From contig CATPCJ010000063.1 in NCBI GenBank assembly GCA_955652915.1, positions 1 through 34,435 on the forward strand: 34,435 nucleotides of DNA, given 5' to 3'. This document shows positions 7,828 to 24,303 of this stretch, piece by piece; the stretch's first letter is position 1; the number at the start of each line of letters is the position of its first letter. The DNA is from an uncultured Bryobacteraceae bacterium. Its GTDB lineage: Bacteria > Acidobacteriota > Terriglobia > Bryobacterales > Bryobacteraceae. The notes below the pieces were generated by a model. The model made no database searches. It worked only from the letters and a program-made list of their open reading frames with translations, and was not told the DNA's origin. The translations under genes were made by a program, and so were the position numbers.

Positions 7828-9711
7828 CTAATCTCGCGATCCGATAGCTTCTGCAACTTCGATGGCCATGGAATAGCGTCCAAACGGAGCGCTTAACTGG
7901 ACACCTTCCACCAAATGGCGGACGCGCTCGACCATCTCTTGAGCGATGGCCACGCCTTCCTGCCGGGCTTTCTCCGCGTTGTCCACCAGCCGCATTCTCT
8001 CCATGAGACGCTCGGGAACGGGAACTCGCAACTCATTTACCATGAATTCCGCGTTTCGAAAACTGGTCAGGGGCCAGATGCCGCACACCACCGGCAATTT
8101 GAATGGCTCGATACGTTTCAAAAATTGCTCCAGCAAATTGAGATCGAAAACCGGCTGGGTCACGATGTACTCCGCGCCAGCCTGGGCTTTCCACTCCATG
8201 CGGCGGATCTCCTCATCCATATTCAGCGCGCCTGGATTGGCGCCCACGCCCAACAGCAATGAGGTTTGGGAACCCATCGGATTGCCGCCGATGTCGAGCC
8301 CGCGATTCAGATTGTTGACGATGTTGGTGAGCCCGATAGCGTCGACGTCGAAGACCGCCGTGGCGTCGGGATACGTGCCCATGCGCGGTGGATCGCCGGT
8401 GATGCAGATCAGATTGCGGATGCCGACGGTATGCGCGCCGAGCAATTCGGATTGGATGCTGAGAATGTTCCGGTCGCGACAGCAGAAGTGGAGAACGGCT
8501 TCGATCTTGGCCTGTTCCTGAATGAGCTGGCAGGTAACCTGCGCGCTCATGCGGGCACTGGCGCGCGGGCCGTCGGGCACGTTGATGCAATCGATGCCCG
8601 CCGCGGCGCATTCCTTCGCGCCTTGGATTTCTTTCGAAGCGTCCACACCGCGAGGAGGAAGAATCTCGACGAACGCGACGAATTTGCCGGCAGCGAGCCT
8701 GGCGCCCAATTTGCTTTTTTCACCAATCGGAATTTTCGCCAGCGCCTTGACCTTCGCGACAGGCTCTTCGACGGTCGTCTTCAGCCGCTTGATCTGAGGC
8801 CGCAGCGAGCGCACTTCGGCGTGAATCAACTTGATATGTTCGGCGGTGGTGCCGCAACACCCGCCAATTATCCTCACGCCGGCGGTCAAGAAACGGCGCG
8901 CGTACTGCGCCATGTATTCGGGCGAGCATAAGTAAATCTGACGCCCTTCGACCACTGACGGCAGACCCGCATTCGGCATCGCGCTCATGGGCTTGTGCGA
9001 ATAGCGCATCATCTGCTCGAGAGTTTCGAGCGTCGCTTTGGGTCCCACGGAGCAGTTCAGACCAATGGCGTCGGCGGGCCATTCGTCCAATTTGTTCGTG
9101 TAGGTTTCAGGCGTTGCGCCATCGGGCATGTTGCCGTTGTCGTCGATGGTGACATGCGCGACGATCGCCATTTCCGGTCCGGCCACGGCGCGCGCGGCGA
9201 AGACAGCTTCCCGCAGCTCGTTCAGATCGTAAAAAGTTTCCAGGATCAACAGGTCGACGCCGGCTTCCACCAGCGCTTCGGCCTGCTCACGAAACATGTC
9301 GCGCGCTTCGGCAAACGAGATGGATCCCAGCGGCTCGATACGAACGCCCAGCGGTCCGATCGCGCCGGCGACATAGACCGCGTCTCCGGCAGCTTCCCGG
9401 GCGAGCCGAACGCCTGCCAGGTTGATGGCCTTCAGTTTTTCCGCGAGTCCGAATGCCGCGAGCCGCGCGCGATTAGCGCCGAAGGTGTTGGTCTCCAGAA
9501 TCTCCGCGCCGGCCTTGACGTATTCCTGATGTGTCTCCCGCACCAGCGCCGGCGTGGTGAGATTCAGCTCGTCAAAACAGCGATTGATGAAGATGCCCTT
9601 GGAGTAGAGCACGGTGCCCATGGCCCCGTCGGCAACCAGGACGCGGTTGACGAGCTGCTCCCGAAACTCCTTCGGCTTGGCTTGGCTCACTGGGGGTGAA
9701 GTCGCGATCAT
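7828..9711 (-). CDS. Bifunctional homocysteine S-methyltransferase / 5,10-methylenetetrahydrofolate reductase
   Basis: This is a fusion of two methionine-synthesis activities, as in B. subtilis YitJ. Residues 15-310 are the homocysteine methyltransferase barrel, with zinc ligands C220 (GLNCSVGP) and C285/C286 (GGCCGTT). Residues 335-625 are a MetF-type flavoprotein barrel that makes 5-methyl-THF from methylene-THF. Its VEILPPRG, CITGDPPRMGTYPD and TQPVFD motifs are all present. At 627 residues it is full length. The ATG is preceded by an A/T-rich stretch (AGTTATCTAA) with no strong Shine-Dalgarno sequence. It is the first gene of a minus-strand run that continues with the TsaC-like gene. I see no recognisable SAM riboswitch in the 280 bp upstream. 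Confidence 0.93.
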   Translation of the reverse strand: MIATSPPVSQAKPKEFREQLVNRVLVADGAMGTVLYSKGIFINRCFDELNLTTPALVRETHQEYVKAGAEILETNTFGANRARLAAFGLAEKLKAINLAGVRLAREAAGDAVYVAGAIGPLGVRIEPLGSISFAEARDMFREQAEALVEAGVDLLILETFYDLNELREAVFAARAVAGPEMAIVAHVTIDDNGNMPDGATPETYTNKLDEWPADAIGLNCSVGPKATLETLEQMMRYSHKPMSAMPNAGLPSVVEGRQIYLCSPEYMAQYARRFLTAGVRIIGGCCGTTAEHIKLIHAEVRSLRPQIKRLKTTVEEPVAKVKALAKIPIGEKSKLGARLAAGKFVAFVEILPPRGVDASKEIQGAKECAAAGIDCINVPDGPRASARMSAQVTCQLIQEQAKIEAVLHFCCRDRNILSIQSELLGAHTVGIRNLICITGDPPRMGTYPDATAVFDVDAIGLTNIVNNLNRGLDIGGNPMGSQTSLLLGVGANPGALNMDEEIRRMEWKAQAGAEYIVTQPVFDLNLLEQFLKRIEPFKLPVVCGIWPLTSFRNAEFMVNELRVPVPERLMERMRLVDNAEKARQEGVAIAQEMVERVRHLVEGVQLSAPFGRYSMAIEVAEAIGSRD

Positions 9712-9897
9712 TTAGATAACTTTGGCGACCCGGATAATAACTGGACTGGCCGTCCTGCACAACGCCGCGCACTGGGCGGCCGTAAATGCGAGAAATGATT
9801 CCGCTCTTAAAGGCGGCCAGGGTCCGATAAGATGATACACGCCCAGTGTAGCAAAGTGGCGGGGGGTAGGCCTTTGAATCCGCGTTCATCGCCGCTC

Positions 9898-9924
9898 ATC
9901 GGCGGCCAATAATTAGCCGCCGAT
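9898..9924 (-). terminator. Hairpin downstream of the HD-GYP/GGDEF gene
   Basis: ATCGGCGGC (9898-9906) and GCCGCCGAT (9916-9924) form a perfect 9-bp GC-rich stem with an A/T-rich 9-base loop, 67 bp past the stop of the minus-strand c-di-GMP gene. The T-run expected of an intrinsic terminator is absent. It may terminate that gene before the methionine gene on the same strand. The end of the stem overlaps the first copy of the 40-bp direct repeat. Confidence 0.45.
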
Positions 9925-10015
9925 AGGCGATACCCCTACTGCACTGTCATCGTTGCCCAGAGGCTGGAAGAGCGTCGATAGGCGATACCCCTACTGCACG
10001 GTCATCGTTGCCCAG
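9921..10015. repeat. 40-bp direct repeat, one copy being the 3' end of the c-di-GMP gene
   Basis: Positions 9921-9960 and 9976-10015 are identical over 40 bp except for one base (CACTGTCAT against CACGGTCAT), with a 55-bp period. The second copy contains the last eight codons and TAG stop of the HD-GYP/GGDEF gene, read on the minus strand. The first copy is the same sequence placed after the stop. This is a recent small tandem duplication, with a 15-bp non-repeated spacer between copies. Confidence 0.9.
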
Positions 10016-12429
10016 CGAACCGGCCGCTCGGATGGGAGATGATTCGCGCGCTTGTGAATTTCCTTGCTGGCATACATCCTGTGGTCGGCCTCGGCCAGCA
10101 GGCCTTCGGCGTCGGCGCTGTCCTCCGGATAACTGGCTGCTCCCACGCTGAGCGACACCAGCGGCTCCCCGCAGACCCGCTTGCCGCCAATTCGCACCGC
10201 ATTTTCGAACTCGGCAATTCGCTCCTCCACCGCCCGGGGCGACAGGCCCGGAAGCACCAGCACGAATTCGTCGCCACCCATCCGGGCTACATAATCGTAT
10301 TCGCGGCAATGCTCCTTGAGCGTGCCCGCCACCATCTGCAGTAAACGGTTGCCTTCCAGGTGCCCGAAGCGGTCGTTGATTTGCTTGAAGCCGTCGAGGT
10401 CGCAGACCAGCACGGCCAGCGGAGTCTTGGTGCGCCTGGAGCGGCTGAGCTCGTCCTCCAAATGCAAGAACAGGGACCGGGCGTTGGGCAGGCCGGTGAG
10501 GAAGTCGGTGGTGGCGCACGATTCCGCCTGGCGGAAGCGCAACGCGTTTTCTATCGCCAGCGAAACTTTGGATCTCAGGGCCAGCAGAACGCGCAGGTTG
10601 TCCTTGGTGAACGCATCCTTTTCGGAGCGGTACAGGGTCAGAGCGCCGAATGCGCCGTCCAGTCCGTTGAGCGGCACCGAAAGGGCCGACCGCAAGATGC
10701 TGGTCTGCAGCGGATCGTTCGAGTATGCCGATTCGAGCGATGGATCGCTGTTGACCACCCACTCGTCGTTGGCCGCCACCCATCCGGACAGCCCCTCGCC
10801 CAGCGGTATGTTCAGCGATGAGAAGAGGCGGAAATCATCGCCGCTCACATGCTCCGGGATCAGCCGTCCGTTCTTGATGACGTAAATGGCGATGGCGTCG
10901 TAGGGCACGATGGTCTTCAAGCGCACCGCCAAAACCGACAAGGTCTCGCTCAGACTCAGCGAATTGCCGATATCCTGCGTCAGCTCGAAGAGCGATTGTA
11001 CTTCCTGACGGGCGGCCGCGATGGAGTCCAGGAACTGCAGCGGCTCACCGTGCTCAGCGTGCAGCGGGGTCCTGGTGATGGCCAAACCCGCCGCCGGAGC
11101 GATGCCATTCGCGGGGATGCTGGTGGACAACTTGCGCGTGTTCGCAGGCGCCTGCCGGGCTTTTTGTTCCAGCTCGCGGTACCGCGCCTGGAGAATGGCG
11201 ATGACGTTCGGATCGAAAGTGGTCCCCGACTCCGACGCGATCTTCGACATGGCTTCGTCCAGAGGCAGCGCGCGGCGGTACTGGCGATCGGTAGCCAGCG
11301 CGTCCAGACAATCGACCGCGGAAAGAATGCGCGCTCCTATCGGGATTTCTTCGCCTTTCAATCCGTGGGGATATCCGCTACCGTCCCAGCGCTCGTGGTG
11401 GGCCCGCACGATGGGCACCACCGGATAGGGGAAATCGATTTGCTCCAGGATCTCCGCGCCGACGATTGGATGGATCTTCATCTTCTCGAATTCTTCCTGC
11501 GTCAGCCTGCCGGGTTTTGAAATGATGTGCTCGGGAACCGCCAGCTTACCGATGTCGTGGAGCACCGCGGCCGCCCGCAGGGCGTTCAGTTCGTCGGCGG
11601 TAAGGCCAATCTCTTTTCCGATTTCAAGGGCGTATACCTGGACGCGGTGCAGATGTTCGGAGGTGCGGTGGTCTTTGGCGTCGATGGCCAGCGAGAGCGC
11701 CTCTATGGTCCGAAGGTGCAGCGCCGCGACCTGTTCGGTGTGCGACTTCTCGCTCTCCAACCGGCCCAGGTACAGCCGGTAGGATCGAAATATTACATAC
11801 ACCAGGGGAAGGCCGAAAATCGCGGTGCGCCAGCCGAAGCGTCCGTTCGCGAGGTGCACGACCTCAGCGATACCGGCCCCCACAATGTAATACGGAAAGG
11901 ACCAGAAATAGCACGTTTTCCAGACGTTGCGGAACGACTTATGTTCCACCAGCGAGATGATGACCGCTACTGGAAAAGAATTTCCGGCAAAATAGGCACA
12001 GGCCGCCGCCGTAAGAAGCAGCGGCTCGCGAAAATCGACTCCGTGAATTAATGCGGTGTGGTAAACAGCTTCCCCGAGTGAAGTGGCAATCGACACGACC
12101 GATATATTGAAGAGCACTTGAATAACTTGCGGGCGCGTATTCGTTCGGACCAAAGCTTGCAGCAGTGTCGCGCCGCAGGCAATCACCAGCGTTTCCGGCA
12201 CCGTGAGTTCGATGATGCCCACTAGTATGAATAGGAAATTCACCGACATGGTACTAGTGATGCCTGGAAGTTTCACCTTCAGCACCGACCCCGCCAAGGC
12301 AATGGCCAAATAAAACAGGAACTTCGGCAAGTCACCGCTATGAAACTCGATGAGCCCCGTCAGCAAAGCCGTCATTCCAACGGCCATGATGGCCGCTACG
12401 AATAATTTGGCTTTGATCGAGAGTGCCAT
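9991..12429 (-). CDS. Membrane c-di-GMP turnover protein with HD-GYP, GAF and GGDEF domains
   Basis: This 812-residue protein probably both makes and degrades cyclic di-GMP at the inner membrane. Residues 1-220 hold about seven or eight hydrophobic segments forming a sensory membrane domain. The HD-GYP phosphodiesterase domain spans 235-420, with HD at 291-292 and HHERWDGSGYP at 344-354. A GAF domain spans about 480-630. The diguanylate cyclase domain spans 640-800, with DFLTGLPN at 642-649, an intact GGDEF at 718-722 and the product-inhibition RxxD site (R709, D712) exactly five residues before it. I chose the ATG at 12429 because MALSIKAKLFVAAIMAVGM starts the first membrane helix; a longer reading adds 51 proline/arginine-rich residues. 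The gene is monocistronic and divergent from the subtilase gene. Confidence 0.88.
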   Translation of the reverse strand: MALSIKAKLFVAAIMAVGMTALLTGLIEFHSGDLPKFLFYLAIALAGSVLKVKLPGITSTMSVNFLFILVGIIELTVPETLVIACGATLLQALVRTNTRPQVIQVLFNISVVSIATSLGEAVYHTALIHGVDFREPLLLTAAACAYFAGNSFPVAVIISLVEHKSFRNVWKTCYFWSFPYYIVGAGIAEVVHLANGRFGWRTAIFGLPLVYVIFRSYRLYLGRLESEKSHTEQVAALHLRTIEALSLAIDAKDHRTSEHLHRVQVYALEIGKEIGLTADELNALRAAAVLHDIGKLAVPEHIISKPGRLTQEEFEKMKIHPIVGAEILEQIDFPYPVVPIVRAHHERWDGSGYPHGLKGEEIPIGARILSAVDCLDALATDRQYRRALPLDEAMSKIASESGTTFDPNVIAILQARYRELEQKARQAPANTRKLSTSIPANGIAPAAGLAITRTPLHAEHGEPLQFLDSIAAARQEVQSLFELTQDIGNSLSLSETLSVLAVRLKTIVPYDAIAIYVIKNGRLIPEHVSGDDFRLFSSLNIPLGEGLSGWVAANDEWVVNSDPSLESAYSNDPLQTSILRSALSVPLNGLDGAFGALTLYRSEKDAFTKDNLRVLLALRSKVSLAIENALRFRQAESCATTDFLTGLPNARSLFLHLEDELSRSRRTKTPLAVLVCDLDGFKQINDRFGHLEGNRLLQMVAGTLKEHCREYDYVARMGGDEFVLVLPGLSPRAVEERIAEFENAVRIGGKRVCGEPLVSLSVGAASYPEDSADAEGLLAEADHRMYASKEIHKRANHLPSERPVRWATMTVQ

Positions 12430-14718: not shown

Positions 14719-16167
14719 TCACGTCTTCACGATCTGCGGGATCAGTTCACCGTACACGTCCGTCAAGCGCATGTCGCGGCCGTTAAAGCGGTACGTAAGC
14801 CTGGTGTGGTCCATGCCCAGCAGATGAAGGATGGTGGCGTGAAAATCATGAACCGAGATCGGCTGCTCTTCCGCCTTGTAGCCGAACTCATCGCTGGATC
14901 CGATTACTTGTCCGCCTTTAATTTTCGCGCCGGCCATCCAGATGCTCATGGCTCCCGGATTGTGATCGCGTCCCAGGCCACGCTGCGAAATCGGCATGCG
15001 GCCAAATTCCCCTTGCCAGATCACCAGCGTCGAATCCAGAAGACCGCGCGCTTTCAAGTCCGTCAGCAAGCCGGAAATCGGCAAGTCCACTTCCTTGGCA
15101 TGCCGGCCGTGGTTCTCCCGCACGTTCTCATGAGCGTCCCACGTATCGATGTTCTGAACGCCCAAACCACCGTGATATAACTGCACAAACCGCACGCCGC
15201 GCTCCACCAGCCGCCTGGCCATCAGGCATTGACGCGCAAACGGTTCGGTCACCGGATCGTCGAATCCATACAATTTTCGAGTCGCGGCCGATTCCTTTTC
15301 AAGATCCACCGCCTCCGGCGCGCAACTTTGCATGCGATAGGCCAGCTCGTAGGAATTGATCCTGGCCGCCAATTCCGTATCTCCCGGATATTTCCGGGCG
15401 TCCAACTGGTTCAGCTTCCCAAGATAATCGAGACGCGCCCGTTCTTGTCCCGGAGTCACGCCCGAGGGCGGCTTCAGATCGAAGATCGGAGTGCCGGAGG
15501 CCTTAAACACCGTCCCCTGATAGGCGGCCGGCATAAATCCCTGACTCCAGTCGGACGGGCCGCCCATGGGGCCGCCACGCGCATCATAGATCACCACGAA
15601 GCCTGGCAGGTTGTTGCTTTCGGACCCAAGCCCGTACGTCACCCACGAACCCAGGCACGGAAAGCCCATGCGAATGACGCCGCTCTGCAGAGCATAGACC
15701 GCTTGCACGTGATCGTTGGACATGCTGTACATCGAACGGATCACCGCCAGCTCGTCGACATGCGACGCGATATGCGGGAAAATCTCGGACACATCGATGC
15801 CGCTCCCGCCATATTTGCGGAACGTGAATGGGCTCGGCATCAAAGGTCCGGGATTGCCTTGCCGCACTATGATGTCGCCTCTGCCTGTTAAGGGTTGTCC
15901 GGCATAACGCGCCAGCGCTGTCTTGGGATCGAATGTATCCACATGGCTCACGCCGCCGCTCATGAACAACGAAATCACACTTTTCGCGCGTGGCGGGAAA
16001 TGGGGCTTGCGAGAAGCAAACGGGTTCGGCGTGCTGGATGAATTTGAGCACGCGTCTTCGTCAGAGGCCAGCAGACCATCCTGATTGAGCAGCCAGGCCA
16101 ACGCCATGCCACTGATACCGCCGCCGCTTTCAAACAGAAACTCGCGCCGCGACCGGAATCGTTTCAT
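14719..16167 (-). CDS. DUF1501 domain-containing protein, Tat-type signal
   Basis: This 482-residue protein belongs to the DUF1501 family (alkaline phosphatase/sulfatase-like fold), abundant in Planctomycetes and Acidobacteria and of unproven activity. The N-terminus has a twin-arginine-like signal (RSRREFLFESGGG, residues 5-17) followed by a hydrophobic stretch. Typical family segments are visible: SVISLFMSGGVSHVDTFDPK near 63-82, HVDELAVIRSM, QGFMPAAYQGTVF, FVQLYHGG and the C-terminal WQGEFGRMP...GRDHNP. It lies 3 bp after the stop of the cytochrome/DUF1549/DUF1553 gene, the standard partner in these phyla. The pair is thought to take part in envelope-associated polymer or sulfated glycan breakdown, but this is unproven. 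Confidence 0.9.
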   Translation of the reverse strand: MKRFRSRREFLFESGGGISGMALAWLLNQDGLLASDEDACSNSSSTPNPFASRKPHFPPRAKSVISLFMSGGVSHVDTFDPKTALARYAGQPLTGRGDIIVRQGNPGPLMPSPFTFRKYGGSGIDVSEIFPHIASHVDELAVIRSMYSMSNDHVQAVYALQSGVIRMGFPCLGSWVTYGLGSESNNLPGFVVIYDARGGPMGGPSDWSQGFMPAAYQGTVFKASGTPIFDLKPPSGVTPGQERARLDYLGKLNQLDARKYPGDTELAARINSYELAYRMQSCAPEAVDLEKESAATRKLYGFDDPVTEPFARQCLMARRLVERGVRFVQLYHGGLGVQNIDTWDAHENVRENHGRHAKEVDLPISGLLTDLKARGLLDSTLVIWQGEFGRMPISQRGLGRDHNPGAMSIWMAGAKIKGGQVIGSSDEFGYKAEEQPISVHDFHATILHLLGMDHTRLTYRFNGRDMRLTDVYGELIPQIVKT

Positions 16168-16170
16168 GCC

Positions 16171-18750
16171 TCACCTCACGTACAAAAACTCGTTCAAGTT
16201 GAGCAGAACATGCGCGAAGTCCGCCAGCTTGTGCCCCGCCAGGAACTCGGCGGCGAGCTTGCTCTCTTCGGCGTCAGGGGGCCGGCTCAACGCCAGCCGA
16301 TATCCCAATTCCACTTGCTTCCGAGGGTCGCCAGGGGCGGCTTCCTCCAGGCGGCTTGCAAATAACCGAGCCTGCCGCACGACGAACTCGTCGTTCATCA
16401 ACGCCAACGCCTGCGTGGGAACGGTGGACACATCGCGCGCGCCGCAGGAGATGTTCTGGTTGGGCAAGTCAAAAACATCGAGGAGCGGGAATGGCAGCCC
16501 TCGCTTGCGGTAAATGTAGATGCTGCGCCGCCATACCTCGGGCCCATCCTCGTGATCCAACCAGATACCCTCCTTCGTCTGTGCCAGAATTTCCGGCGGG
16601 AGCTTCGGAAAAACCGGCTTGCCGAACATCTCGGTATTGAGCGCTCCGCTCACAGCCAGAATCGAATCGCGGAGGATTTCCGCTTCGACTCGCGAGATAC
16701 GGAAGCGCCAATAAAGGCGGTCTTGGGGATCTTTCGCCATGTTCGAGGCGTCGTTGAATTGCGACGTCATCCGGTACGCTTCCGACGTCATCAGCAGCCG
16801 GTGCAATTCCTTGACGCTCCAGCCGCGATCCATGAACTCAACCGCCAGCCAATCGAGCAGCTCCGGGTTTGTGGGTAGCTCGCCCAATTTGCCGAAGTTA
16901 TCGAGCGTCGCGACGATGCCGCGTCCAAAATGATGATGCCAGATACGATTCACAATCACGCGCGCCGTCAGCGGATTCTCAGGCGACACCAGCCATTCCG
17001 CCATGGCGCGCCTGCGTCCGGAAGTGTGGCCCGAAGCAGGCGGCAACTCGACGGGCGGATTGCCGTAGGTGATGGCGCTCACGAATCCGGGCTTCATCTC
17101 GGGACCGCGGCTGTTCAAGTCGCCGCGAATGAGCAAGTACGATGGAGGCACTTGATAGCGCCCTGGACCGGTATGCAAATAGCTGCCCTCGATGGCCTCG
17201 CGCTTGACGCCCTTGCCCGGCGCAGGCTCGTCGCCAGGGCCATCGGGAGTAAAACGATAATCGCCATCGGTCATGCCCATGGCGACCGGGATCCGCTGGG
17301 GACGTTCCTTATTGATGGCGGCGATCTGGGCCTCGAGCCGGCGTCTCTCCGCCAGATCCTCCGGCTTCATGATGCGTTCCATTTCGGCGCTCGATACCGA
17401 AACCGTTCGAATCACTTGCGAGGCGAGAAGCTGCTGGCCGGGCGTCCGCTGGGCTTCGGGAACGGCAATCGCATCTTGAATGTTTTGGGGAAACTTCTTA
17501 TATTTCGGCGGCAGCAGAGTATTGCGATACGGTTGTTCGAGGGTGCGAATCTTCTGACGAATCTCGTTGACGCGCGCGTCGAGTTCCGCGGTCTTTGTTT
17601 CGTATGCACGCGCCTCTTCAGGAGAAGTCAGCGGATGATCCACCTCCACGGAGCCGAACAGCGAAGCTTGCATGCGATAGTAGTCGGTTTGCGGAATCGG
17701 ATCGAATTTATGATCGTGACAGCGCGCGCATTGCACAGTCAGGCCTAGGATGCCCCGCCCAATGGTAGCGATCATGTCGTCCAGATACTCATAACGAAAC
17801 TCGGGGTTGTCTTTTTCCCGATACCCCACTTTCGCGTAGCTGCGCAGAAAGCCGGTGGCAATCAGACTGTCCTTGGTGACTGGCTCCAGTTCATCGCCGG
17901 CGATCTGCTCCCGCAGGAATTGGTTATACGGTTTGTCCCGATTGAACGCGCGGATAACGTAATCGCGATAGCGCCAGGCGTTGGGACGATCGAAATCGTG
18001 TTCGAAGCCGTTGGAGTCCGCATAGCGCGCGACGTCGAGCCAGTGGCGGCCCCAGCGCTCGCCATATTGAGGCGACGCCAGCAGGCGATCGATGAGCTTG
18101 TCCCATGCATCGGGCGACTTGTCGTCCAAAAACTCCGCCGCCTGCGCGAGCGTGGGCGGCAAACCGATCAGGTCCAAGTAAGCCCGGCGCAGCAGTGTCT
18201 GGCGATCGGCCGGCGGCGCGGGCTTCACGCCTTGGGCCTGCATCGCTTTCATGAGGAAGGCATCCACGGGGTGGCGGTTCATGCGCTCGACGGATGTCAC
18301 CGGAACGGCGGGGCGCACCGGCTTCTGGAACGCCCACCAGTTAAGCGCTTCAGAAGCGGGGCTGCGCTCGGCGGCCGATTCCCATTGCGCGCCCCGATCG
18401 ATCCAAAGTTTGATCGCCTCCACCTGATCCGGCGTGAGCTTGCCGCTCATCGGCATGCGCGGCGTTTCGAGCCCGGCGACGAGGCGGTACAGACGGCTGC
18501 CCTCAGCCTTCCCCGGCAGGAGGACGATACCGTGCTCTCCGCCTTTCAGCGCCGACTGGCGCGTGCGCAAATCGAGCTTCGACGATTGCACGGTTGCGCC
18601 ATGGCAGGTCCAGCAACTGGCTTGAAAGATCGGCTCGATGTCTTTTGAGAAGGAGACCTGCCGATCCGCAGCCTTCACGGAGGACGCGGCGATCGCGAGG
18701 AGTGCAAGCCAGACCGAACGGCGTGGCACAGTAAATTGATTATATTGCAA
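16171..18750 (-). CDS. Planctomycete-type cytochrome C / DUF1549 / DUF1553 protein
   Basis: This 859-residue exported protein has an N-terminal signal (WLALLAIAASSVKAA). A Planctomycete cytochrome C domain (about 33-125) has the heme motif CWTCH at 46-50 and a late Met (PRMPMSG) as possible axial ligand. DUF1549 covers about 150-360 (RRAYLDLIGLPPT, RWGRHWLDVARYADSNG, CARCHDHKFDPI with a second CxxCH). DUF1553 covers about 590-840 (NRIWHHHFGRGIV, ALALMNDEFV). The TTG at 18750 has AGGA upstream. An in-frame GTG at 18729 (MPRRSVWLALL) is a credible alternative: a TATAAT box reads on the minus strand at 18744-18739, so the shorter form could be almost leaderless. It is cotranscribed with the DUF1501 gene; substrate unknown. 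Confidence 0.9.
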   Translation of the reverse strand: MQYNQFTVPRRSVWLALLAIAASSVKAADRQVSFSKDIEPIFQASCWTCHGATVQSSKLDLRTRQSALKGGEHGIVLLPGKAEGSRLYRLVAGLETPRMPMSGKLTPDQVEAIKLWIDRGAQWESAAERSPASEALNWWAFQKPVRPAVPVTSVERMNRHPVDAFLMKAMQAQGVKPAPPADRQTLLRRAYLDLIGLPPTLAQAAEFLDDKSPDAWDKLIDRLLASPQYGERWGRHWLDVARYADSNGFEHDFDRPNAWRYRDYVIRAFNRDKPYNQFLREQIAGDELEPVTKDSLIATGFLRSYAKVGYREKDNPEFRYEYLDDMIATIGRGILGLTVQCARCHDHKFDPIPQTDYYRMQASLFGSVEVDHPLTSPEEARAYETKTAELDARVNEIRQKIRTLEQPYRNTLLPPKYKKFPQNIQDAIAVPEAQRTPGQQLLASQVIRTVSVSSAEMERIMKPEDLAERRRLEAQIAAINKERPQRIPVAMGMTDGDYRFTPDGPGDEPAPGKGVKREAIEGSYLHTGPGRYQVPPSYLLIRGDLNSRGPEMKPGFVSAITYGNPPVELPPASGHTSGRRRAMAEWLVSPENPLTARVIVNRIWHHHFGRGIVATLDNFGKLGELPTNPELLDWLAVEFMDRGWSVKELHRLLMTSEAYRMTSQFNDASNMAKDPQDRLYWRFRISRVEAEILRDSILAVSGALNTEMFGKPVFPKLPPEILAQTKEGIWLDHEDGPEVWRRSIYIYRKRGLPFPLLDVFDLPNQNISCGARDVSTVPTQALALMNDEFVVRQARLFASRLEEAAPGDPRKQVELGYRLALSRPPDAEESKLAAEFLAGHKLADFAHVLLNLNEFLYVR

Positions 18751-18912
18751 TTGATCCTGAAGCGGAACGCAACGGCTTCACGGAGGCGTGCGACATAAGA
18801 AGGAGAGATTCATGGAAGCGCTGGCCAGGTAAACCCGGAAAGCTAGAAAGCTGATTCTCAGCTTGACCCCAAGAGCGCTCGGGCAGTACTTTCGGATTGG
18901 AGGTCTGATGCC
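18751..18912 (+). promoter_or_regulatory. Divergent promoter/leader region with a possible hexapeptide leader ORF and hairpin
   Basis: These 162 bp separate two divergent genes. On the plus strand, AAGGAGA (18800-18806) precedes a six-codon reading frame, MEALAR-stop (18812-18832). A perfect stem AAGCTGA-TTC-TCAGCTT follows at 18848-18864, and then GGAGG (18899-18903) belonging to the large secreted protein gene. The order resembles a short leader peptide plus hairpin, but the ORF is so short that chance is a real possibility. Confidence 0.3.
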
Positions 18913-21900
18913 ATGCCGCTTTCGTTCCTCTTGTTCCCGAGCTGGTTACGACGCGCCGTGTTGGCCGGTGTCATGGTGCTGTCGCAAAGCCTCGCGTTTG
19001 TCGCCGCCCAAACAATAAGCGGTACGGCAAGGCTGTCGTCCAGCGCAACCGTGGTTGGCCCGAGCGTTGTAACGACCAGCGGCCGGCAGTTGATCGTTCG
19101 CAAACGTAATCCGGATGGCACACTCGGGGTGGCAGCGCCTTACATAATTCGCGCGGTCAACTGGTCGCCCGCAAGCAAGACCACCAACACGACGCCGCAG
19201 GATCCAAATAATGCCAGTGTCAGACGCGCCGAGTTCGCCAACTGGTATCTCACCGATATCCCGCTGCTTAAGGCTATGAACGTCAACACGGTGCGGCTGA
19301 GTCTCGACCCAGGACTCGATAGCACGGCATCGGCCGTTCTAGATCAGCTCTACAGTAACGGCATCATGGCGATTGTCACGGTCGATAATGGCGTGAACGA
19401 TACGAACAGACTTACACAGTCCGTGGGTTTCCTCAAGAATCATCCAGCCGTTCTCATGTGGAACCTGGGAAACGAATGGAACATCAACCTGTATTACGGA
19501 GTCGCGAATTCGGTGAAGGACGCCGCCACGCGGACGCAGAATGCAGCCGTGGCGCTTAAGATGTTAGACAGCAACCACCCCGTGGGCACAAGCTACGGTG
19601 AAATCGATATTCCCAGCACAGGCTTGACCCTTAGCGACACATCAAACTACGTAAACAACATCTGCACCAGCGTGGATATATGGGCACTGAATATTTATCG
19701 CGGGAGTAGTTTCAGCAACCTTTTCGAGCAGTGGAGCTCCATCTCCGGCAAACCGATGTTCATTGGCGAATTCGGCACTGACGCGTTCAACGATGGCGTC
19801 GGACCTGGCGTGGTCGACGAAACCATGCAGGCTCACTTCGACCTTTGTCTATGGAACGAACTCTTCGGAAGGCTTTCGGCGAGGGACCCAAACCAGATTG
19901 CCGTGGGAGGGGCGATTTTCGAGTGGAACGATGAGTGGTGGAAAGTGCCGCCTCCCACCTCCCAAGACACAGGCGGGTTCGCGTCGGGCGGTCACCCGGA
20001 TAACTTTGCAAACGAGGAATATTTCGGGCTGGTGGATATTGACCGGCACGCACGGCTGGCATATCAAATGATGACCGCTGCGTTCGACGCGAATTATTTG
20101 CCACCGCGCCGCTCGATTGTGTACGGAGCTACCTCCCGAGGCGCGAAGGTCTCGGAGTACCCGTACGAAACCGGGAGCAGCCGCTTCTATTCCTGTGGAA
20201 AGCCGTTCTACTCGATTACCGGCGGGGGTTATGGCCGAGGTTTCAATGTTGTCGTACTTGACCCGCCAACCGGTAACTATCTGCCACGGAATTTCGATAC
20301 ATGGAAGGACTCGAACATCGATTTCAAAGGAACCGCCATGAACGCGATGATCGCCTATCTGGACAGCCTGGCGGTTGGAACCACGATGATGATATCGGTG
20401 GCGGACGAGGCTGGTTTGACGGACTACGGCTGTACCAAGCTGACCTACTCCTGGGTCGAAGCCGGTCTGCGGGCGTTGGAAGCCCTGGGCAGTCACCAGA
20501 TCCGCAACTACTGCTATCAGGACTCCTGGGCGATGATCGCGGTCAAAGGCGAGGGCTCGGCTCGCGACGAGAGTTTGGGCCACTCGGCCCCCGTCTCAGT
20601 CAAACTGGTGAGCCCGCTCCCGGTGGTGAGCATCGGCAAGACACACTCGGGGAATTTTACTCAAGGACAGGCAGGCGCATACACGCTAACGGTATCGAAC
20701 TCAACCAATGCGGGGCCGACCAGCGGAACGGCGACAGTCACCGAAATGTTGCCTTCTGGTTTGACTTTAGTCTCGATGGCGGGCACGGGCTGGATGTGCA
20801 CGGCGAGCGTTTGTACGCGCAGTGACGCACTGGCCGGCGGCGCAAGCTATCCGGCGATCGCGGTGACGGTGAACGTTTCCGGAAGCGCATCGTCGCCGCA
20901 AGTGAACCAGGCTTCTGTTTCCGGTGGAGGATCGGCCACAAGCAATGCCAGCGATTCCACCATCGTCAACCAGGTCCAGCCGACTCTGTCGGTGAATCGG
21001 AAAGTGCTGAACTACGGGATCGGCGGGTCGCTGATCACCAGTCCGCAGACCGTTTTGGTTACCATTACCGGCGGCGCGGGTGCGGCCTGGACGGCGAGCT
21101 CAGACCATTCCAACATTACGATGAACCCCGCTTCCGGAGTGGGCACAGGCACGTTCCAGATTTCCGCTACGCTCGGATCGAGTGGCATGGTTACGGTCAC
21201 CGCTCCGGGGGCAGCCAATTCGCCACAAACCATTCAGGTGAACGTTGCCAGCGTGGCCCCCACGGTGCCATTCGGCAGCTTCGATACGCCAATCAATGGA
21301 ACCACGGGCGTCGTCGGCGCGATTGGAGTCACCGGCTGGGCGCTGGATAACATCGAAGTTGCACGTGTCGATATTTTCCGGGAGCCGGTGGTGGGTGAAG
21401 CTCCCGGCAACCTGGTTTTCATCGGCACCGCGGTATTTTCCGCCGATGCAAGGACGGACGTAGCGGCCATGTTCCCGACTTATCCCTATCAATACCGGGC
21501 GGGCTGGGGCTATCAAATGCTCACCAACTTCCTGCCGAATTCCAACGGCTCTGCCGGGACCGGCAACGGAACTTACAAACTCCATGCGATCGCATTTAAC
21601 AAGGCGGGTAGCCAACAGGATCTTGGAACCAAAACGATTACAGTCGACAATGCGCATGCCACGAATCCGTTCGGCACTATCGATACGCCCACGCAGGGCG
21701 GCACGGTCTCCGGCGCGGACTCGGTGGACTTCGGTTGGGCGTTGACGCCGCAACCGGGCGCGATAGCCATGGATGGATCGACCATTACCGTGGTGATCGA
21801 CGGCGTTTTAGTGGGACATCCGGTTTACAATCAGTTCCGCTCCGATATCGCGAGCTTGTTCCCCAATTATGCGAATAGCATGGGAGCGGTGGGCTTCTAC

Positions 21901-22389
21901 CACATCAACACGACAGCGCTGGCCAACGGAGTCCACACGATTTCCTGGAACGCGTTCGACAACCTGGGACGCGGTTCAGGGCTCGGCAGCCGGTACTTCA
22001 ATGCGCTGAACACAGGTGGGAGTGGCATGGCGGCGGCGCCCGAGGATGCGATCGACGAATCGGTCGCGAGGGGAGGCGTTCGAGTTCGTAATGGACTGGA
22101 TGTCAACCGTCAACCAGACGCGGTGGCGCAGGATGCCGATGGCGGCTACTCGGTGACGATGGAAGAAATGGGTCTCATCGAATTGCATCTCGGCGCAGCC
22201 AGCGGCAGCAGGCTGATCGAAGGCGAGGCGCAGGCGTTGCCGACCGGTTCCACTTTGAAGGGCGGAGTATTCTACTGGCAGCCTGGACCGGGTTATCTGG
22301 GCGAGTACACGATGCAGTTTACGCGGCCGGATGGAACCACGATTGCGGTTCGGGTGAATATCGTTCCGAAGCGTTTTTCCATCAGATAG
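18913..22389 (+). CDS. Large secreted multidomain protein: clan-A glycosidase-like barrel, ILEI/FAM3-like domain, DUF11 and Ig-like domains
   Basis: This 1158-residue exported protein starts at an ATG nine bases after GGAGG; its signal peptide ends near residue 33. Residues 75-395 form a TIM barrel of glycoside hydrolase clan-A type, with likely acid/base E188 (LGNEWN) and nucleophile E286 (MFIGEFGTD), resembling GH2/GH5-like enzymes acting on beta-glycans. Residues 402-555 match the ILEI/PANDER (FAM3) fold: GRGFNVVVLDPPTGNY, NFDTW, AYLDSLAVGTTMMISVADEA, LGSHQIRNYCYQDSWAMI and KGEG. A DUF11 repeat covers about 572-685. A BACON-like beta domain covers 690-780. Two related Ig-like repeats begin PFGSFDTP (787) and PFGTIDTP (about 917). 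The C-terminal 130 residues are an unassigned beta-rich region. Substrate is unknown; surface carbohydrate binding or hydrolysis is inferred. Confidence 0.88.
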   Translation: MPLSFLLFPSWLRRAVLAGVMVLSQSLAFVAAQTISGTARLSSSATVVGPSVVTTSGRQLIVRKRNPDGTLGVAAPYIIRAVNWSPASKTTNTTPQDPNNASVRRAEFANWYLTDIPLLKAMNVNTVRLSLDPGLDSTASAVLDQLYSNGIMAIVTVDNGVNDTNRLTQSVGFLKNHPAVLMWNLGNEWNINLYYGVANSVKDAATRTQNAAVALKMLDSNHPVGTSYGEIDIPSTGLTLSDTSNYVNNICTSVDIWALNIYRGSSFSNLFEQWSSISGKPMFIGEFGTDAFNDGVGPGVVDETMQAHFDLCLWNELFGRLSARDPNQIAVGGAIFEWNDEWWKVPPPTSQDTGGFASGGHPDNFANEEYFGLVDIDRHARLAYQMMTAAFDANYLPPRRSIVYGATSRGAKVSEYPYETGSSRFYSCGKPFYSITGGGYGRGFNVVVLDPPTGNYLPRNFDTWKDSNIDFKGTAMNAMIAYLDSLAVGTTMMISVADEAGLTDYGCTKLTYSWVEAGLRALEALGSHQIRNYCYQDSWAMIAVKGEGSARDESLGHSAPVSVKLVSPLPVVSIGKTHSGNFTQGQAGAYTLTVSNSTNAGPTSGTATVTEMLPSGLTLVSMAGTGWMCTASVCTRSDALAGGASYPAIAVTVNVSGSASSPQVNQASVSGGGSATSNASDSTIVNQVQPTLSVNRKVLNYGIGGSLITSPQTVLVTITGGAGAAWTASSDHSNITMNPASGVGTGTFQISATLGSSGMVTVTAPGAANSPQTIQVNVASVAPTVPFGSFDTPINGTTGVVGAIGVTGWALDNIEVARVDIFREPVVGEAPGNLVFIGTAVFSADARTDVAAMFPTYPYQYRAGWGYQMLTNFLPNSNGSAGTGNGTYKLHAIAFNKAGSQQDLGTKTITVDNAHATNPFGTIDTPTQGGTVSGADSVDFGWALTPQPGAIAMDGSTITVVIDGVLVGHPVYNQFRSDIASLFPNYANSMGAVGFYHINTTALANGVHTISWNAFDNLGRGSGLGSRYFNALNTGGSGMAAAPEDAIDESVARGGVRVRNGLDVNRQPDAVAQDADGGYSVTMEEMGLIELHLGAASGSRLIEGEAQALPTGSTLKGGVFYWQPGPGYLGEYTMQFTRPDGTTIAVRVNIVPKRFSIR

Positions 22390-22427
22390 CGCTTTGGCGC
22401 GGACTGACGCTCAAAAAATCGGGGGTG

Positions 22428-22446
22428 TTCACGCAGTGGGCGTGAA
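22428..22446 (+). terminator. Hairpin after the large secreted protein gene
   Basis: TTCACGC-AGTGG-GCGTGAA is a perfect 7-bp stem with a five-base loop, 39 bp past the stop. It is followed by GTAGTTTACTCTGGTTT, which is T-rich but not a clean T-run, so terminator function is only plausible. Confidence 0.4.
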
Positions 22447-22470
22447 GTAGTTTACTCTGGTTTAAAACCC

Positions 22471-22854
22471 ATGGCAAAAGAACCGAAGGCCGATCCTGGC
22501 GAGGAACATCTGCGGCGAGTGCGGCGAATCTGTTTCGCCATGCCGGAGACGATGGAAAAGCTATCGCATGGCGCGCCAACTTTCTTTGCCCGCGGTAAGA
22601 GGGTTTTTACGATGTTCGTGAACAACCATCACAACGATGGCCACGTGGCGGTTTGGATTCCCGCCGCGCCCGGTCTGCAGGCGACGCTGATCAGAACTTC
22701 GCCAAAGACCTATTTCAAGCCGCCTTACGTGGGCGTAAAAGGCTGGATCGGCATCGAGATGGATTCGATCGACGATGAAGAATTGGCGATGCATATCAGC
22801 GACGCGTGGCGAATGGTTGCGCCGAAGGCGAAGAAATTCAGGAGAGACGCATGA
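22471..22854 (+). CDS. MmcQ/YjbR family protein
   Basis: This 127-residue cytoplasmic protein belongs to the MmcQ/YjbR family, small proteins with a CyaY-like fold often described as DNA-binding. The segment FAMPETMEKLSHGAPTFFA (22-40), with PE followed by HG.P.F, is the family hallmark. VFTMFVNNHHNDGHVAVWIPA and the late GWIGIEMDSIDDEELAMHISDAWRMVAPK are also typical. No partner or pathway is established. The gene overlaps the next by four bases (ATGA), so the two small proteins are made together. Confidence 0.85.
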   Translation: MAKEPKADPGEEHLRRVRRICFAMPETMEKLSHGAPTFFARGKRVFTMFVNNHHNDGHVAVWIPAAPGLQATLIRTSPKTYFKPPYVGVKGWIGIEMDSIDDEELAMHISDAWRMVAPKAKKFRRDA

Positions 22855-23228
22855 CATCCGACTTTGCCGCTGCATTCGCGGCCTTGAAACCGGTGCTCGG
22901 GAAATATGAAAAACGTTTGTCGGTGAAGTCGGACACGCCCATGGAGTACACCGTACTCACGAAATCGGTTTCTCCTTTTCCGCAACACAAAGGGGAGCCG
23001 CTGTACTTCGGCTCAGTGCGGCTGGGCAAGGCGTACGTGAGCTTTCATTTGGTGGCGCTGTACATGTGTCCGGTGATGGGGAAGAGCGTCACGCCGGCGC
23101 TGAAGAAGCGCATGCAGGGGAAGGCGTGCTTCAACTTCAAGGCACCGCCGGAGCCGGAGTTGATGGCGGACCTGAAAAAGCTGACAGCGGAAGCGGTGAA
23201 ACTTTGGGGCGAGAAGAAGTGGTTGTGA
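22851..23228 (+). CDS. Small conserved protein of unknown function, possibly DUF1801/YdhG-like
   Basis: This 125-residue cytoplasmic protein has no signal or membrane segment. The ATG at 22851 has GGAG six bases upstream and overlaps the stop of the MmcQ/YjbR gene. The sequence (LKPVLGKYEKRL near the start; PLYFGSVRLGKAYVSFHLVALYMCP; KKRMQGKACFNFK; ending LKKLTAEAVKLWGEKKW) resembles a common family of small bacterial proteins with the fold of DUF1801/YdhG. I recognise the pattern but cannot give a function. It ends only four bases before the stop of the oppositely oriented SAM hydrolase-family gene, leaving no room for a terminator. Confidence 0.75.
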   Translation: MTSDFAAAFAALKPVLGKYEKRLSVKSDTPMEYTVLTKSVSPFPQHKGEPLYFGSVRLGKAYVSFHLVALYMCPVMGKSVTPALKKRMQGKACFNFKAPPEPELMADLKKLTAEAVKLWGEKKWL

Positions 23229-23232
23229 GCGG

Positions 23233-24021
23233 CTAGTAGATGGATAGCTCAACGGGCGACCCCGCGCCGCAGCCTAGTGCCTTCGCGGCCGATGCCTGGT
23301 TGGCTGCCACTTCCAAGTAACCGGAACTGCCTACCAGAACGAACAGGTCGCCCGGCGAACCGTCGGTAAACGTCAAGGCCAAGCGGGTCACGGTTTGCAA
23401 TCCGACGTTCAGCTCGAACGGGCGCGTCCGGATGTTGGGGAATGCCTCGATATGCAGGTTGGTGATCAGGTTGCCGAAGCGATCGGCCTGGAGGACGATT
23501 CCGGTCCAGGCGCGCTTGCCGGTGCGAGTGGGCTGGTCGAAGGTAAGGCGCAGATAGTCGTCGATGCTTTTTCCAAATTGCGCCGGTGGAACTCCCGCGG
23601 CGATATGGGCCGCCACGGGTGCAAAAACATCCCGGCCGTGAAATGTTCGGCTCACGGGGTGCAGGAAGTAGCGCTCGTTAGCGATGTGGCGGACCTTGGC
23701 TTTTTCGCGGGCGAAGATCATCGAGAAAACTCCGTTGTCCGGGCCGATGAAATACTGGCCGGCCATCTCCGCCAGGAGCGGGCGGCGCGTCGAGCCCACT
23801 CCGGGATCGACGACGACGACGTGAATTGTCTTCCTGGGAAAGTAGCGGTAGGCTTGCGCGATGGTGAAGGCGCCGCCGGGAACTTCGAAGGGTTGAACTT
23901 CATGCGAGATGTCGACGATCCCGGCGTTGGGCGCAATGCCGAGGATGACGCCCTTCATGGTTCCGGCAAAATGATCGCAGGTCCCGAAATCGGTTGTGAG
24001 GGTGATGATCCGTCTCGCCAC
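23233..24021 (-). CDS. SAM hydroxide adenosyltransferase (SAM hydrolase) family, DUF62
   Basis: This 262-residue protein belongs to the family shared by SAM hydrolases and SAM-dependent fluorinase/chlorinase. Most bacterial members split S-adenosylmethionine to adenosine and methionine with water. Family motifs are TDFG at 10-13 and DHFAGTMKG at 16-24 with the conserved aspartates, DISHEVQPF at 37-45, DPGVGSTRRPL at 72-82, PDNGVFS at 94-100 and FHGRDVFAPVAAHIA further on. I chose the GTG at 24021 (MARRIITLTTDFG), the normal family N-terminus; an upstream in-frame ATG adds 44 unrelated residues through the neighbouring gene remnant. Shine-Dalgarno support is weak. Halogenase activity is not suggested by the context. 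Confidence 0.87.
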   Translation of the reverse strand: MARRIITLTTDFGTCDHFAGTMKGVILGIAPNAGIVDISHEVQPFEVPGGAFTIAQAYRYFPRKTIHVVVVDPGVGSTRRPLLAEMAGQYFIGPDNGVFSMIFAREKAKVRHIANERYFLHPVSRTFHGRDVFAPVAAHIAAGVPPAQFGKSIDDYLRLTFDQPTRTGKRAWTGIVLQADRFGNLITNLHIEAFPNIRTRPFELNVGLQTVTRLALTFTDGSPGDLFVLVGSSGYLEVAANQASAAKALGCGAGSPVELSIY

Positions 24022-24054
24022 GTATTTGATGATAGCGTTCAAAAGGGAGGCGTC

Positions 24055-24303
24055 ATGAGACGAAGGGAGTTGGGGGTGGCAAGCCTGAAACCGCGGTGGA
24101 ACGCAAAGCGGGATTACACCCTGGCTCTGCCGGCAAAAATGCCGGATGAGCACCTGGCGTTCCGGCCTACTCCCGAGGCGTGGACGTTTTCGACTGCGGC
24201 TTTCGAACGGCTTACTTCGGACGCGGTGGCTTAGGGAAAGACGAAGTTTTTCGATGACCGGCTTTCGAAGCGTGAGTTATGTGACCGCTTGCTGGAGAAG
24301 CTA
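24055..24303 (+). pseudogene. Decayed DinB-family gene
   Basis: An ATG at 24055 follows a strong Shine-Dalgarno sequence (GGGAGG, four bases upstream) and opens a 59-codon frame ending at 24234. Its first 46 residues look like the start of a DinB/YfiT-like four-helix protein: RDYTLALPAKMPDEHL then AFRPTPEAWTF, the usual 'fRPtPe.wtf' segment. Homology then breaks before the expected metal-binding histidine. Another frame after the stop reads KFFDDRLSKRELCDRLLEK, plausibly more of the gene, and ends where the REP-like element begins. Full DinB proteins are about 150-170 residues, so this is a truncated, frameshifted remnant. It could still be translated as a short peptide. Confidence 0.6.

Follow-up and report, generated by a model that had tools for sequence, protein, structure and literature searches.

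The window analyzed here comprises 34,435 nucleotides of contig CATPCJ010000063.1 from an uncultured Bryobacteraceae bacterium (assembly GCA_955652915.1). At positions 18913 to 22389 of the plus strand, which carries all parts of the gene described below, the open reading frame and Pfam matches define a gene for a protein of 1158 residues, with the coordinates, length and frame given in an earlier sequence-only reading of this DNA. The product is probably a secreted multidomain protein. A hydrophobic N-terminal stretch (residues about 14-35; mean hydropathy >1.6 from residue 14) fits a secretion signal, and hydropathy marks residues 1 to about 36 (18913-19020) as a probable signal peptide; secretion, as proposed in the same reading, is probable by this measure. 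The protein continues with a TIM-barrel of clan GH-A, similar to GH158 and GH72 (residues 50-398; 19060-20106), a domain with the ILEI/FAM3 fold (residues 400-565; 20110-20607) and C-terminal repeats (20608-22386) that are probably Ig-like beta-sandwiches, as suggested by sub-threshold Pfam matches (DUF11-like at residues 590-621 and Big_13-like near 884-913).

The 17 annotated neighboring ORFs include an aldehyde oxidase type protein, MFS, MTHFR, HD/GGDEF, DUF1501, PSD1, YjbR, SAM hydroxide adenosyltransferase, UbiA, SCO1, an outer-membrane barrel protein, ExbB and ExbD, and a search among the 17 for a glucan-use cluster revealed no clear partner. The DUF1501 and PSD1/PSCyt pair adjoins the gene at window positions 14719-18750; a PSD1 query matched 25 stretches of the window genome and 7-26 in four relatives, and many of these stretches are pieces of a single gene. 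The window genome yielded neither a second barrel nor a second ILEI domain. On the right, the UbiA-SCO1 flank is present in 4/4 same-genus genomes, with UbiA being 78-87% identical, and in the four same-genus stretches compared, one of which reaches only 3.5 kb upstream, the outer-membrane protein is found in two and AIRS in two. The ILEI gene and its left neighbors (YjbR, SAM hydroxide adenosyltransferase, PSD1 and DUF1501) had no match in these four stretches, and ILEI is absent from all four same-genus genomes. The shared right flank indicates that the contig belongs to the genus, with the ILEI gene in a variable stretch. Within window positions 14719-24153, the tested genes to the left of UbiA were not found beside UbiA in the four genomes, and this segment may represent a variable or acquired block.

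The barrel matches PF02836 (GH2_C, the GH2-type TIM barrel) at residues 164-294 (E 8.3e-8; 32.2 bits with a cut-off of 21). When a profile of nine barrels was compared with the PDB, GH158 (9oro; 2.1e-20) and GH72 Gas2 (2w62; 2.2e-16) led the matches, and many GH2 chains, including glucuronidases and galactosidases, matched from 1.8e-12 on; the single window sequence also matches GH158 (2.7e-5). Two glutamates are invariant across the nine aligned barrels, i.e. E188 in the motif GNEWNIN (19474-19476), the predicted acid/base, and E286 in GEFGTDAF (19768-19770), the predicted nucleophile, both assigned by motif and alignment, and they align to the glutamates of GNE and EFG in the GH158 and GH72 chains. 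The catalytic pair of Gas2 is E176/E275, its place in the matched chain being read off the profile alignment. The alignment thus provides the glutamate pair of clan GH-A together with the asparagine before the acid/base (N187-E188, E286), in agreement with the clan-A hydrolase-like domain with two catalytic glutamates that had been read from the letters ahead of ILEI. The DEWW motif is likewise intact, and by its sequence the enzyme in the window itself looks intact.

N187-E188 corresponds to N136-E137 of BuGH158, which is described in the available part of PMC7157763 as an endo-beta-1,3-glucanase that is inactive in the mutants N136A, E137A and E220A; GH158 acts on beta-1,3-glucan according to the same text, while GH72 is taken as a beta-1,3-glucan family from the molecule names of the matched PDB chains. 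By profile, the barrel is nearest to GH158 and GH72, both beta-1,3-glucan families. As formal family labels for the window barrel, GH72 (PF03198) was rejected at 15.9 bits, under the curated cut-off of 25.9, which two relatives exceed (L020 and L022; 31.3 and 28.6), and GH2 was rejected on a partial match (164-294) with no GH2 N-terminal sandwich domain among Pfam matches to E 1. An AlphaFold model of barrel plus ILEI is weak (whole-model mean pLDDT 58.9), and its Foldseek matches are to the clan GH-A enzymes GH1, GH2 and GH128; because the barrel part of the model is poor, the barrel assignment rests on the profiles.

The identity of the second domain is near certain. PF15711 (ILEI) matches residues 442-546 far beyond chance (E 1.1e-13; 52 bits with a curated cut-off of 27 bits); the window genome has one ILEI domain and 0/14 control genomes have a match. 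The motif pieces noticed in the sequence-only reading are all in place (GRGFNVVVLD..TG at 441, NFDTW at 460, VADEAG at 496, LGSHQIRN at 525 and YQDSW at 535), and the domain does lie at 20116-20577 as proposed, except that the modelled and aligned fold is slightly longer (20110-20607, residues about 400-565). For residues 376-596, sequence matches in the PDB identify FAM3B (0.0021) and POMGNT1 (0.0077) as the nearest solved structures. An AlphaFold model of residues 395-565, built from 36 sequences, has a pLDDT of 83.9 and a pTM of 0.82. With this model, 21 of the 21 Foldseek matches in the PDB at E <=0.001 are POMGNT1, FAM3A/B/C or TMEM2, and the next match has 0.03 with a probability of 0.20. 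In VIA-align, the model aligned to POMGNT1 5ggf_B with Z 18.5 (2.0 A, 138 residues, 26% identity), to FAM3B, FAM3C, FAM3A and TMEM2 with Z 16.1, 15.1, 15.0 and 13.2, respectively, and to the best unrelated row with Z 2.6. The check that the earlier reading had called for, a superposition on the FAM3 beta-beta-alpha fold, accordingly came out in its favor, in that the predicted domain superposes on the POMGNT1/FAM3 monomers with Z 14.8-18.5. Structure comparison with viral models also brought up T4-type gp35 hinge connectors, along with several phage proteins that bear the ILEI name.

In POMGNT1, Arg129, Asp179 and Arg207 directly bind beta-linked GlcNAc, according to excerpts of PMC9802357, which also describe sugar binding by FAM3C, FAM3A and a worm FAM3-like domain; other monosaccharides are listed as further ligands of the POMGNT1 stem in what is available of PMC9802357 and PMC9437275. 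By alignment to POMGNT1, the window ILEI domain keeps two of the three residues, with R442 (20236-20238) as the equivalent of R129 and D498 (20404-20406) as that of D179, and has Q536 (20518-20520) in place of R207. In a site table that covers the domains within the profile cut and entered (i.e. without L035, L036 and L019), the 11 glycosidase-linked ILEI domains have R129 in 10/11, D179 in 11/11 and R207 in 4/11, with Gln at the latter position in seven. The 29 domains labelled C25 have these residues in 20/29, 25/29 and 25/29, respectively, and the four on polytopic membrane proteins, for which the alignment is uncertain, in 2/4, 1/4 and 1/4. The last counts indicate that the Arg/Asp pair can vanish while the family match remains. 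In addition, C507 (20431-20433) and C534 (20512-20514) form a Cys pair in the subclade alignment that is common to the window, L028 and L057 only (3/50 ILEI domains) and absent from the other 47.

Counting the window's own genome, PF15711 was found in 10 of 237 genomes of the window's family, in 11 of 396 in a sample of the phylum (eight above the cut-off; the match in G517 is under it) and in three of 162 in the class of G407. An ILEI alignment query of a genome contig collection yielded 30 loci out of 71 pattern matches, i.e. 23 labelled C25 peptidase, L057, L067, L074 and four duplicates; L058, L059, L060 and L065 duplicate the contigs of L021, L023, L022 and L020, respectively, and each pair entered the counts a single time. 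L101, in which only the C-terminal half of the protein is covered, is in no count, L074 was left out of the family scan and L055 out of the barrel table. A single-sequence query with the window ILEI region gave 12 pattern matches in the genome contig collection and no relative, and the alignment query gave 82 in a viral contig collection and no relative. Because the structure library does contain phage ILEI proteins, the viral result reflects a limit of sequence patterns. When plasmids were searched with barrel plus ILEI, two barrel matches at 26% identity were returned and no ILEI.

Glycosidase-linked ILEI domains occur in three architectures. In the first, the barrel is directly followed by ILEI, as in the window and in L028 from a genome of a different family (G407), which has the same junction of barrel tail and ILEI at 53% identity. 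The L028 barrel is truncated on the 5' side, so that its final portion and ILEI are what remains; a different kind of ORF (L028:6844-8658, against 8595-10841) extends into its place and overlaps the barrel tail by about 60 bases, and the missing half may reflect a deletion junction, a pseudogene or an assembly join. In the second, represented by L057 (Blastocatellia), ILEI and a TIG-like part precede a C-terminal GH17 (PF00332, 1.7e-11; VGSEV and ISETGWP found). In the third, represented by eight proteins from the window's family (L020-L027), the barrel is followed by sandwich-like regions and a C-terminal ILEI. The closest barrel relative, L049, is 60% identical, stops where ILEI begins in the window and has no ILEI. 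Thus, ILEI is an optional add-on that is dispensable to the barrel family. A tree of 50 ILEI domains, with a bootstrap that had not entirely converged and long branches for several other rows, unites the window, L028 and L057 in a clade at 100/99 and the third architecture in a clade at 98/95; a branch at 86/92, which falls short of the star limit, sets all 11 glycosidase-linked domains apart. Within the window-L028-L057 clade, the barrels are of two glucanase types, GH158/72-like and GH17, and stand in opposite order relative to ILEI, an argument for transfer of the module between enzymes with related polymers as substrates.

In the third architecture, six of the eight barrels have lost the nucleophile (L021 and L023-L027) and three the acid/base (L021, L025 and L026), with a shaky alignment for L024-L027. 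The ILEI Arg and Asp are present in 7/8 and 8/8 of these proteins, respectively, and in 5/6 and 6/6 of the six that lack the nucleophile. In other words, the binding residues outlast catalysis in this group. This agrees with a binding role and would be surprising if the domain did no more than assist hydrolysis.

ILEI domains also occur on other hosts. The C25 label was confirmed by phmmer in 22 of 23 loci (L085 is cut off), and these 22 (L061-L086), mainly from Ignavibacteria, Bacteroidota, KSB1 and Calditrichota, have one or two ILEI domains per large C25 (gingipain-type) peptidase, some second copies being without the sugar-site Arg. The two C25 loci scanned with Pfam (L061 and L066) have CARDB and FlgD-like tails, and C25 proteins with FlgD-like tails have a role in type IX secretion. 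L029, L030, L031 and L034 (also L035 and L036) are polytopic membrane proteins that have ILEI in their C-terminal part; some weakly resemble YfhO or PMT_2, and the sugar-site residues are mostly lost. ILEI is located in the first quarter of a protein of >2100 residues in Sulfidibacter corallicola (L074:3819-10319), the start of which gives the impression of the large Tc/SpvA type, and in a giant protein of >3300 residues in Omnitrophota (L067:234-10274), with a weak RHS-repeat match nearby. Finally, ILEI in L033:5168-6325 is fused to an end with weak matches to a DUF4332-like helix-hairpin-helix, which is unexpected company for a domain that is usually extracellular.

We consider it reasonably probable that the window protein is a secreted glycoside hydrolase with an ILEI-fold carbohydrate-binding module, likely acting on beta-1,3-glucan. 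In this model, E188 would serve as the acid/base and E286 as the nucleophile of a clan GH-A barrel that cleaves a beta-glucan, most likely one with beta-1,3 linkages. The ILEI domain, immediately after the barrel, would grip a sugar of the same polymer via R442 and D498 and either keep the enzyme on its substrate or shape the cleft, while the C-terminal sandwich repeats could serve as a spacer or surface anchor. Sugar binding by the ILEI domain is likely, and both the polymer and a joint action of the two domains are inferred. The bacterial carbohydrate-recognition role envisaged in the sequence-only reading gains support, short of proof, from the two kept sugar contacts, the occurrence of this ILEI subclade on glucanases of a second family, and the ILEI-type domains of phage adhesins and animal hyaluronidases that are tied to glycans in the published text available. 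Arg207 being replaced by Gln, the poorly modelled barrel, the window score under the GH72 cut-off, the lack of a recognized glucan gene cluster and the L049 barrel without ILEI speak against the model.

The barrel profile is matched by GH2 enzymes as well, among them glucuronidases and galactosidases, which leaves a wide choice of polymers. It is conceivable, if somewhat less than probable, that the substrate is a glycan other than beta-1,3-glucan, that the barrel is GH2-, glucuronidase- or galactosidase-like or a transglycosylase, and that ILEI binds that other glycan. The GH2_C match above its cut-off, the many GH2 chains matched by the profile and the binding of beta-GlcNAc and other monosaccharides reported for the POMGNT1 stem would all agree with this; by contrast, the two families that top the profile search are beta-1,3-glucan families, L020 and L022 pass the GH72 cut-off, the sister ILEI sits on a GH17, and Pfam detects no GH2 sandwich domain before the barrel.

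We think it unlikely that ILEI is a structural or protein-interaction module, i.e. a linker, stabilizer or adaptor, in which Arg and Asp are kept for the fold and not for sugar. We know of no glycan role for C25 peptidases, and ILEI is present in the large proteins of this type; R207 is Gln in the window, and the POMGNT1 stem also binds the protein fukutin (available text of PMC8478517). However, the membrane-protein domains, their alignment being uncertain, suggest that Arg and Asp are not strictly needed for the fold, and almost all members of the glycosidase-linked set retain both, including those that have lost the nucleophile. The loss of the nucleophile in six relatives with persisting R129 and D179 equivalents would also be expected of a lectin or adhesin on a dead or dying enzyme, a description that is improbable for the window protein with its intact glutamates, N187 and DEWW. 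That the fusion is an assembly artefact of a 506-contig draft genome can practically be dismissed, because the ORF is uninterrupted, the right flank is that of the genus and L028, from another genome, repeats the junction and already contradicts it.

ILEI domains are already known from bacteria and phages (Pfam), including phage adhesins, and ILEI beside a glycan-cutting domain is known from animal hyaluronidases. Among open-licence PubMed Central articles, we found no paper on a bacterial ILEI-glycosidase fusion, nor one on ILEI with a TIM-barrel hydrolase, with two glucanase types or with the decay pattern. Returning to the ILEI domain as a carbohydrate-binding module, we tentatively speculate, while rating this as rather doubtful, that the Acidobacteriota domains represent an unrecognized family of beta-1,3-glucan-binding modules, one subclade of which was traded between GH158/72-like and GH17 barrels in opposite order, and that in the sister group the enzyme died and the binding module stayed, giving rise to glucan-binding surface proteins. 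If so, the modules of animal FAM3, POMGNT1 and TMEM2 would be part of an ancient and general family of glycan binders that bacteria and phages have as well. The molecular role of FAM3 proteins is unsettled, and a bacterial ILEI beside a glycosidase in a simple secreted protein would offer a tractable system in which to ask whether the ancestral role was to bind glycans. Beyond that, it would be a candidate for a new beta-glucan-specific carbohydrate-binding module and would draw attention to predicted glucanases whose only name comes from a human cytokine domain.

BuGH158 and GH72 Gas2 are the nearest barrels by profile and have the same N-E ... E residues. However, the BuGH158 barrel is followed by an Ig-like domain (available part of PMC7157763), the window barrel by ILEI, and neither enzyme is reported with ILEI. 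FAM3A, FAM3B (PANDER) and FAM3C (ILEI) share the fold of the window domain (Z 15.0-16.1), but they are single-domain secreted proteins, whereas the window ILEI is one of several domains in 1158 residues and thus not free-standing as in the cytokine-like FAM3 proteins. The 'GG domain' is reportedly the subject of a 2006 paper. Phage ILEI/GG modules (Tal CBM_1 and, by structure match, the T4-type gp35 hinge connectors) also have an ILEI fold, and the streptococcal Tal CBM_1, which is POMGNT1-stem-like with the same Arg and Asp, is read as a carbohydrate-binding module in the accessible text of PMC9437275; unlike the window domain, these modules are in adhesion devices and without a hydrolase barrel. 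In mouse TMEM2 and HYBID, the GG (ILEI-type) domain is needed for hyaluronan cutting (excerpts of PMC10276149). TMEM2 (Z 13.2) and CEMIP (HYBID), similarly to the window protein, have an ILEI-type domain in a glycan-cutting protein. Their substrate is hyaluronan, and the domain partners are G8 and parallel beta-helix repeats, neither of which is among the Pfam matches of the window protein to E 1, while the window partner is a TIM barrel. The closest solved fold is that of the human POMGNT1 stem (5ggf, 5ggl), of which the window domain keeps R129 and D179 and from which it differs by Gln for R207 and an extra insert with the subclade Cys pair. The POMGNT1 stem precedes a glycosyltransferase domain, while the window ILEI follows a glycoside hydrolase barrel.
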